Of a stretch of DNA of 64,000 nucleotides, positions 59,612 to 62,594 are shown in pieces. How positions within the stretch are numbered: position 1 is the first letter of the stretch; each line of letters begins with the position of its first letter. The notes below the pieces were generated by a model that was not told the origin of the DNA, made no database searches, and was given only the letters and a program-made list of their open reading frames with translations. A program made the position numbers and the translations under genes. Origin of the DNA: Marinomonas sp. SBI8L (lineage in GTDB: Bacteria > Pseudomonadota > Gammaproteobacteria > Pseudomonadales > Marinomonadaceae); NCBI RefSeq assembly GCF_001624705.1, contig NZ_JSEO01000007.1:186001-250000 (forward strand), read 5' to 3'.

Positions 59612-61894
59612 TTGAAGTATAAGGTGTTTACGTTGTCTGAGTTGCAATCCAATCAGTTTGAAAAAGCTGATGAGCATTTTGGTAATGTGTTAATTGTTGG
59701 TTTGGGCATGATAGGTGGCTCAGTTGCTAAGGCATTAAAAGAACGCGGTCTTGCTTATCTATTTGGTTCTGATCGACGCCATGATGAACTGACATTGGGT
59801 GTTGCAACTCATGTAATTGATTTTGAAGCTGAGCTAGATGCTGAGTTTATTGAAAAAATGGACGTCATTCTTCTGGCGACGCCAGTAAGAGCGATGGAGG
59901 TTGTGCTCGAACAGATAAAGCCTTTTTTATTGGATACCACCTTAGTAACAGATGTAGGTTCGACTAAGGGGAGTGTTGTTGAGGCGGCAAGAAAGGTGTT
60001 TGGTTCCGTACCTGCGAACTTTATTCCTGGGCATCCTATTGCAGGGGCTGAAAAAAGTGGTGTCTTAGCTGCTAACCCCAATCTATTCGAAAATCATAAG
60101 GTTATTGTTACACCTTTACCCAACAGTGATGCATTGTTAGTTGATAAGCTTCACAGGATGTGGACTGCAATTGGTGCTGATGTGGTAAGTATGGATGTGA
60201 CGCATCATGACCATGTTCTTGCTGGTTCTAGTCACTTGCCTCATTTACTTGCTTATACTCTGGTTGATGCATTGGCTAACAGTGAGCGTAGTCAGGATGT
60301 ATTTAGATTTGCAGCAGGTGGGTTTAGAGATTTTACTCGTATCGCTTCAAGTGATCCTATTATGTGGCGAGATGTCTTCTTGGCAAATAAGGATGCGACT
60401 CTTGAGTCTTTAGATTCTTTTACTGAGCATTTACAACAACTGAGACATTCTATTGAAGTGGGTGATGGGCCTGCGATGTTTGGTGTATTTACTCGAGCAA
60501 AATCTGCGCGAGATCATTTTTTGCGTTTATTAGAGGCGAGATCATCTTCAAGCGCTTCGACTGTAAAGCCTATTTCTATTAAGGTATTGCCCGCTTCACT
60601 GGTGAAAGGTGAGATTAATGTGCGCGGTGACAAATTTCTGTCACATAGTCTGATTACTATGGCTGCCCTTAGTGAAGGGGTAAGTGAATTCTCGAACCTT
60701 GATATGGGTCAGGGGGTCAAAGTGACCTTGCAAGCTCTGCGAGATATGGGGGTTGTTGTTGAGGATTTTGGTGGTCAACGTATTCGCATTCATGGTGTTG
60801 GCTTAAATGGCTTAAAAGCACCTATTGCCCCGATTAATGTGCATGAATCCGAGTTAAGCTTACATGTGTTGCTGCCAGTGCTTGCTGCGCAAAAGTTTGC
60901 TGTTACCTTTGTTGCTGAAGGGGCTTTAAGCTCACAGCCTTTTGTAGATTTACTCTCGATTGTTAAGGTAATGGGAGCAAGTGTGACGACTTCTGAGTCT
61001 GGATGCTTACCTTTTACGATAGCAACAGAAAATCAATTGATAAATCAGTATAAAATTGATGTTAAAGGGCGCTCAAGGCAGTTAAAATTAGCCGCGCTAA
61101 TTGCTGGGGTGATGAGTCAAAAAAATGTTGAGCTGAATTTGCCGAGGGATTTAGATGGCAGTGATGCTGTTTTATCTCTGTTTTCGTGTGAGCAGGATGT
61201 TCGTACTAACGACAAGGGTGACAACATACTTGCTGTAAAGCAGGGGCAGAAGCCACAGGCTGCAAGTCTAGATGTGCCTGCAGATGACAATAAAACAGCT
61301 TGGTTAACATTATTGGCATGTTTATCTCCTGGGTCTAAGTTGATGATTAATAATGCTGGCATTACTCAAATGAACTCAGCATTTTTAAAAGTTCTGCTAG
61401 CAAATGGCGCCAATATTGAATTGCACAATGTTAACGAAGATCAGCCGCTTACTGTGTCTGAAGGCAAAATTAAAGTTGGGTTTGCTGCTTTCTCTGGCTT
61501 TACAATAAAAGAATCAGAGATTTTATCAGTTTGTAGCGAATTGCTACTACTGTGTGTTGCAGCTGTGTACGCCAAAGGTACCAGTAGAATCGAAGGAATA
61601 CATAGCTTGCCCTATCGCTGGGAAGATAGAGTGACAACCTTTGTCGATGCTTTAACTATTATAGGTGTGCCATGCAGTTTACAAGCTGGTGTGCTGGAGA
61701 TCGAAGGTTGCATTCCTTGTGGTGGGGAGCTGGATAGTGCGGGCGATTACCATTTAAGTTTAGCTATGTTGGCTTTGGGTATGCGCAGCCGTAGTCCTGT
61801 GACAGTAAATGATTGTCACAAGTTGTTAGAAGAATTTGAAGAGTTTGAAACTATTGTTGAGTCATTAGGCTTTCATTGCCAACTTACTCAATAA
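59612..61894 (+). CDS. tyrA: Prephenate dehydrogenase fused to a degenerate EPSP synthase-like domain
   Basis: A 760-residue fusion. Residues about 20-310 are a prephenate dehydrogenase ([52 protein letters not shown]) for tyrosine synthesis. Residues about 325-760 have the EPSP synthase fold but most active-site residues are changed: the equivalents of E. coli Ser23, Arg27, Arg100, Arg124, Asp313, Lys340, Glu341 and Arg386 are Phe342, Ser346, His418, Gln442, Ser642, Arg669, Trp670 and His714, and the GNxGT motif reads HESEL. Lys22, Gln171 and Arg344 equivalents remain. EPSP synthase activity is therefore unlikely. Pseudomonas has the same fusion with an active second half. TTG start after AAGGTGG. 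Confidence 0.9.
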
Positions 61895-61910: not shown

Positions 61911-62594
61911 ATGATCAATCAGGCACCTATCATCACAATAGATGGTCCGAGTGGCGCTGGTAAGGGCACTGTGAGTCAGGTAATTGCTGATAAACTAGGC
62001 TGGAATCTATTGGATAGTGGTGCGTTGTATCGCCTATTAGCACTTGCTGCTGCCCATCATGGGATGGCGATGGACGATGCTGACACATTAAAAGTTTTAG
62101 CTGAACACTTGGATGTTCAATTTCGTCACGGAGAAAATGGCGAAACAGAAATCGTGCTAGAAGGCGAGAATGTGACTCAAGCAATTCGCACGGAAGTGGT
62201 TGGTAATAATGCCTCTAAACTTGCTGCTATTCCGGAAGTGCGTGAAGGTTTGCTTCTACGTCAACATGCGTTTGCCCATGAGCCAGGTTTAGTGGCGGAT
62301 GGAAGAGATATGGGGACAATCGTATTTCCTGATGCGCCAGTTAAGGTTTTTTTAACAGCTAGTGCTGAAGAACGCGCAAACCGTCGCTTCCTTCAATTGA
62401 AAGCGAAGGGCGAGAGTGTTAATATTGAAGAATTAGTGAGCACCATTCAAGAAAGAGACGAGCGTGATGCAAATCGTGCCGTTGCCCCTCTAGTGCCGGC
62501 AGTCGGCGCCTTGGTTGTTGACAGTACAGATCAATCCATAGAACAGGTCGTTGAATCTATTCTTGCCGAAGTGGCAAAGAAGGGTATTAACTGA
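61911..62594 (+). CDS. cmk: Cytidylate kinase
   Basis: A 227-residue kinase phosphorylating CMP and dCMP. The P-loop is [26 protein letters not shown] and the lid region [11 protein letters not shown] are typical. It lies 16 bp after the tyrA/aroA fusion with GAGAGG as ribosome site, so it is co-transcribed. Confidence 0.96.

Follow-up and report, generated by a model that had tools for sequence, protein, structure and literature searches.

The EPSP synthase half of the Marinomonas TyrA-AroA fusion: a probable pseudoenzyme under purifying selection

Introduction

Why would a bacterium keep, in frame and at full length, an enzyme domain whose active site appears to be gone? The question is raised by a TyrA-AroA fusion gene of Marinomonas sp. 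SBI8L, located in a stretch of 64,000 nucleotides of contig NZ_JSEO01000007.1 (positions 186,001 to 250,000 of the forward strand), which we call the window. An earlier note, made from the letters of this DNA, had proposed that the EPSP synthase half is catalytically dead and that it is kept for a structural or regulatory role, with a second, working aroA elsewhere in the genome. Here we follow up this proposal in the genome of the window, across the genus and among relatives that carry a spare AroA.

Results

A fusion gene with an intact TyrA half and a low-scoring EPSP synthase half

The features of the locus, in window coordinates, are:
59612..61894, + strand: TyrA-AroA fusion gene, an ORF of 760 aa with a TTG start and no internal stops
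59675..60535, + strand: TyrA (prephenate dehydrogenase) domain, approximately residues 22-308, which looks intact, with PF02153 and PF20463 over cut-off
60575..61891, + strand: putatively dead EPSP synthase domain (P0001, 439 aa)
61911..62594, + strand: cmk, named by eye, an ORF starting 16 bases past the stop codon of the fusion

The TTG at 59612 is the earliest start codon past the preceding in-frame stop, and AAGGTGG lies 10 bases upstream of it. Pfam analysis of the fusion revealed PDH_N and PDH_C followed by EPSP_synthase (residues 329-746, 141.7 bits), so that the fold-level pattern of EPSP synthase claimed from the letters was borne out. The TyrA half passed the PDH_N and PDH_C cut-offs, with 117.1 and 95.4 bits, and many of its columns were invariant in a 47-row alignment with working relatives. 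The curated NCBI models picked the right families, though with scores under their cut-offs: the fusion reached 788.2 bits against NF011381 (PRK14806.1, bifunctional TyrA/EPSPS; cut-off 902), and the domain alone 171.6 bits against TIGR01356 (aroA equivalog; cut-off 287.25).

The possibility that another TyrA renders the entire fusion dispensable was considered and rejected. The fusion is the sole strong PF02153 match in the genome, the other two being weak (27.8 and 25.3 bits, for a cut-off of 26.5); the 27.8-bit match, an ORF of 309 residues, is by eye presumably a relative of 3-hydroxyisobutyrate dehydrogenase.

We take the neighbours, recognised by eye, to be serC and pheA upstream of the fusion and cmk and rpsA downstream. 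A cmk gene followed the fusion, or TyrA, at 14 of the 15 relatives' loci examined, the remaining stretch (L092) being without a cmk match. The order serC-pheA-fusion-cmk-rpsA is the one described for the TyrA-AroA fusion in pseudomonads (PMC1173090).

Loss of the active-site residues is genus-wide

Three replacements stand out in the alignment of the domain with E. coli AroA, translated from NC_000913:
60833..60850, + strand: INVHES in place of the PEP-binding GNSGT loop region (N88 identical in 49/49 domains of the genus, H90 in 92%)
61610..61630, + strand: PYRWEDR in place of RVKESDR, with catalytic K340 and E341 substituted
61751..61753, + strand: His at the position of R386 (GDYHLS versus DHRIAM)

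At the positions of S23, R27, R100, R124, D313, K340, E341 and R386, the domain of the window carries F, S, H, Q, S, R, W and H, which agrees letter for letter with the eight substitutions listed in the earlier note. In the GNxGT loop, N94, G96 and T97 are replaced by E, E and L. Among 16 ligand or catalytic positions, K22, S169, Q171 and R344 are as in E. coli, making it fair to say that nearly all invariant residues are gone, where "all" would be wrong. We scored as a core the eight residues R27, R100, R124, Q171, D313, K340, E341 and R386; one of the eight is retained in the window.

The sample of the genus comprised 49 genomes, Marinomonas plus one Maribrevibacterium, of which 13 are named (12 Marinomonas and Maribrevibacterium harenarium); a search of the family returned the same 49. 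All 49 carry the fused domain, 423-444 residues long, in an open frame, as had been claimed for the single case. Core residues kept numbered 0 in 7 domains, 1 in 29, 2 in 11 and 3 in 2. R100, K340 and E341 are absent from every one of them, and the other core residues are retained in a minority (R124 in 10, D313 in 18, R386 in 11, R27 in 13, Q171 in 5), whereas K22, S23 and R344 persist in 47, 42 and 48 domains, respectively. At most catalytic positions the letters differ between species, with no single replacement residue.

In other genera of the order, all eight core residues were present in 51/51 fused domains, a comparison set taken from about 112 full-length fusions (the 30 best-scoring loci and 21 hand-picked lower-scoring ones). 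Misalignment is thus ruled out, as the same alignment that finds no intact active site in the genus recovers 8/8 residues there. A sequencing error or a single-strain pseudogene is likewise ruled out by the 0-3 residues retained in 49/49 genomes. Among 80 named loci, which come partly from the same genomes, the 13 of Marinomonas and Maribrevibacterium had 0-2 core residues and the 67 others had 8. The loss of the active site is therefore a property of the genus, wider than the one instance first noticed.

The Maribrevibacterium harenarium domain (G016; L084 / L186) is the most diverged of those aligned, with 32% identity to that of the window and an end branch of 1.99, and is still open.

A complete stand-alone AroA is present in the genus

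The genome of the window (5.19 Mb, completeness 99.98) encodes three PF00275 proteins, namely the fusion, a stand-alone AroA and a third protein that we take by eye, from its translation, to be MurA. The second is located as follows:
C56:162813-164048, approximately 83 kb from the fusion: stand-alone AroA (P0003)

This protein scored 478 bits against TIGR01356, over the cut-off of 287.25, and matched E. coli EPSPS 1g6s over residues 1-428 (1.6e-178). Its residues are as in E. coli at 26/26 checked positions. The working second aroA that had been predicted thus appears to exist, and the case of a genome with no other aroA is rejected. An unbroken E. coli-type stand-alone AroA was found in 47 of the 49 genomes of the genus, complete at all 26 positions in 47/47. 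None was found in G042, whose genome is 77% complete, and in G027 the gene is split by a frameshift (L152; its contig matches Marinomonas pontica LMG 22531). Unless it is an assembly error, this split would leave a species without a complete EPSP synthase. Judging from its intact residues, the stand-alone AroA would be the source of EPSP.

It is hardly credible that the fused domain is still an active, if unusual, EPSP synthase. Its fold is predicted to be that of an intact EPSP synthase, and K22 and R344 are nearly universal, as an active enzyme would have them, but R100, K340 and E341 are missing throughout, every genome with an unbroken stand-alone AroA has it complete, and conservation of columns is no higher near the pocket than elsewhere (16/52 versus 31/105). 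The residue tests across 49 genomes argue instead for catalytic death.

The domain descends from the ancestral fused AroA

In a quick tree of 44 rows with long branches (14 of the 49 domains of the genus, 24 working fused domains and 6 stand-alone AroA proteins), the domains of the genus formed a single clade (SH-aLRT 100) nested among the fused domains, its stem measuring 1.92 changes per site. A separate clade (SH-aLRT 100) contained the stand-alone AroA proteins. Because the domain nests among fused AroA domains and its ancestral neighbours are kept, it represents the old fused AroA rather than a late insertion. The genus clade grouped with the fused domains of G081, G219, G091, G144 and G207 (SH-aLRT 97), which are likewise long-branched, and this grouping may reflect long-branch attraction.

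Fast change under purifying selection

Within four families with working fusions, the AroA part evolves more slowly than TyrA, with median AroA/TyrA distance ratios of 0.55-0.72. The ratio is 3.38 in the genus; relative to TyrA, its domain thus changes approximately five times faster than working fused domains, which indicates relaxed constraint.

Relaxation is not free decay. Using Nei-Gojobori counts on the 20 of 1176 pairs with a TyrA dS <1 and a domain dS <1.3, some of which share genomes, we found median dN/dS values of 0.098 for the domain (0.051-0.122), 0.048 for TyrA and 0.036 for the stand-alone AroA. The pair nearest to the window, G000-G036, is over the limits (dS of 1.30 and 2.17), and its domain ratio of approximately 0.08 is nearly saturated. 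Pooled by segment over 12 pairs, some with shared genomes, dN/dS was 0.046 for residues 1-110, 0.144 for 111-235, 0.092 for 236-345 and 0.098 for 346-439. The first segment is thus constrained like TyrA, and in the window it corresponds to:
60575..60904, + strand: residues 1-110 of the domain, the most constrained segment

The reading frame tells a similar story. The 869 synonymous codon differences over eight disjoint pairs predict approximately 165 stops in the absence of selection (0.19 stop changes per synonymous change), and none was seen. Furthermore, at 35 positions aligned to E. coli AroA the domains have conserved a residue seldom found in working enzymes. Purifying selection therefore acts on the domain, and most strongly on residues 1-110.

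No support for a uniform new pocket

Could the old cleft have acquired a new function, either in allosteric sensing or in a different reaction, after rebuilding of the pocket for another ligand (for instance tyrosine, prephenate or some aromatic effector)? An aromatic residue or His occupies three or four of positions 100, 339, 340 and 341 in 46/49 domains of the genus, compared with at most one in 51/51 working domains, and conserved new residues are more common near the old active site than among columns in general (14/88 versus 21/339, p 0.007). However, the enrichment disappears when columns conserved in working enzymes serve as the reference (8/52 versus 17/105, p 1.0), and the variable letters at most catalytic positions make one fixed new pocket far from obvious. 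A rebuilt, uniform ligand pocket is thus unsupported by the column test, and we regard a new function in the cleft as very unlikely. As no new set of residues uniformly lines the former substrate pocket, simple sensing of a shikimate-pathway metabolite, one of the roles initially imagined for the domain, is also weakened.

In other TyrA proteins, an ACT domain is the regulatory part. The Marinomonas domain might have been converted once, in the ancestor of the genus, to a new regulatory domain of TyrA with an ACT-like job, in which the aromatics replacing R100, K340 and E341 would line a cleft responsive to an aromatic metabolite (tyrosine or one of its precursors); we consider this scenario quite unlikely.

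Relatives with a spare AroA have lost or altered the fused domain

In a sample of 195 genomes of the order, an E. coli-type AroA match was present in 44, 9 in the genus and 35 outside. Of the latter, 33 scored >500 bits, and the distant matches of G113 and G231 were set aside. The 33 outside-genus genomes form a natural series.

In nine, the fusion is full length and none of the eight core residues is missing. Six of these nine fusions, beside a spare AroA, are changed at other ligand positions:
G200: G96
G207: K22 and G96
G091 and G144: K22, N94, G96 and H385
G081 and G219: N94, G96, R344 and H385

At loci L085-L087, L090-L091 and L094 (genera g42, g34 and g88), the changes of the fused AroA beside a stand-alone AroA are K22R, N94Q or H, G96A, H385P or L, and R344P; going by structure titles, G96A is a glyphosate-insensitive mutant of the E. 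coli enzyme. The AroA/TyrA rate ratio is raised in g34 (3.12, one pair) and g42 (1.68, median of three pairs, 0.61-1.72).

In five genomes of one genus (f41 g41; G088, G143, G187, G206 and G225, loci L233-L237), TyrA is followed by a shrunken AroA remnant of approximately 290 residues in addition to a stand-alone AroA. Approximately 145 middle positions are missing in the clearest case, and the remnants are 20-34% identical to each other versus 52-70% for the TyrA parts. This represents an independent loss of the fused AroA.

Eighteen genomes have a TyrA without EPSP synthase domain (17 by ORF length, 296-358; G178 separately), which shows that loss of the domain is possible and has happened more than once. 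One last genome, G234, has no TyrA match. At the three domain-less loci examined, cmk and rpsA are still downstream, with cmk directly after tyrA in two of them and an E. coli-type aroA in between in the other. In G106 (L240, family f43), such an aroA lies between tyrA and cmk, as if replacing the fused domain in place. By contrast with these relatives, none of the 49 genomes of the genus has lost the domain. Among the groups sampled, only the genus of the window has the domain whole with its active site lost.

These observations bear on whether the domain is a passive passenger with no dedicated job, kept since it must fold beside TyrA and since stops would cut the expression of cmk and rpsA. 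Part of the constraint on the domain may come from having to fold in a way that does not disturb TyrA, and polarity on the two downstream genes may disfavour stops, cmk starting just 16 bases on. The fast overall change of the domain and the variability of most catalytic positions are what one would expect of a passenger, and there is a parallel in Candida albicans Aro1, whose dead DHQase domain is deletable without growth defect (PMC9074039). Folding and polarity do not readily explain residues 1-110, however, because their constraint is close to that of TyrA, nor do they sit well with the 35 conserved new residues. Moreover, at the three loci examined in relatives the domain is gone while cmk and rpsA still follow, yet all 49 genomes keep it at full length. 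We therefore hold a passive passenger to be unlikely, though the least so of the alternatives. Retention for a non-catalytic role, as put forward in the earlier note, is supported by purifying selection together with universal retention in the genus, in contrast to the losses among relatives that have the same spare AroA.

Discussion

In Marinomonas, the fused EPSP synthase domain is probably a pseudoenzyme, i.e., homologous to an active enzyme, with its catalytic residues lost and retained by selection, and its job is probably structural or regulatory, most likely exerted on TyrA. TyrA is suggested as the target by the covalent link and by the constraint on the part adjacent to the linker. 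According to the mechanism that we propose from the tree and the distribution of the genes, an ancestor with a normal TyrA-AroA fusion would also have come to possess a stand-alone E. coli-type AroA, which would have made the fused active site redundant. The substrate and catalytic residues would then have been lost, as seen at residue level in every species sampled from the genus, with the predicted fold and the reading frame preserved. The domain is under purifying selection, most strongly in residues 1-110, and the selected trait is most likely some influence other than catalysis on the prephenate dehydrogenase to which it is joined: it may stabilise TyrA or hold it together, or tune its activity. 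Several observations speak against this reading: an AlphaFold2 model of the monomer predicted no firm placing of the two domains and no firm interface between them (pTM 0.64, pLDDT <50 at residues 312-316), the domain changes fast, the comparable domain of C. albicans Aro1 is deletable, and no complete stand-alone AroA was found in two of the 49 genomes.

For the redundant half of a bifunctional enzyme, the genomes analysed here provide a natural series of intact fusion, first changes, domain loss, shrunken remnant and apparently dead domain under selection. They also carry a warning for annotation, as the nearest curated model names such proteins bifunctional while EPSP synthase would be encoded by another gene.

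In the openly licensed literature that was accessible, we found no report of a dead EPSP synthase domain in Marinomonas. The closest family is the TyrA-AroA (TyrA-AroF) fusion of pseudomonads and Acinetobacter (NF011381/PRK14806; A. baumannii EPSPS domain 5bs5, residues 312-756), from which the Marinomonas domain differs by its lack of catalytic residues and its scores under the family cut-offs. The stand-alone class I AroA of E. coli, Vibrio and Klebsiella belongs to the same superfamily but to the separate branch of the tree, with intact active-site residues.

Two known systems are similar. In C. albicans Aro1, a dead DHQase domain is retained in a multi-enzyme of the shikimate pathway and the separate, type II enzyme Dqd1 can compensate (Life Sci Alliance 2022, PMC9074039). 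That case concerns another enzyme in a five-domain protein of a eukaryote, and its inactivity was measured, whereas that of the Marinomonas domain is read from residues. In Pseudomonas syringae TyrA-AroF, approximately 200 residues of the fused AroF domain have been lost, and with them the EPSPS function, a loss coupled to the acquisition of a stand-alone AroF in what the authors call an unusual instance (BMC Biol 2005, PMC1173090). They raised the speculative idea that what is left of the domain might evolve into a regulatory one, which is now testable across 49 genomes. The P. syringae case is one species with a truncated domain, whereas in Marinomonas the domain is full length in a whole genus, with purifying selection measured.
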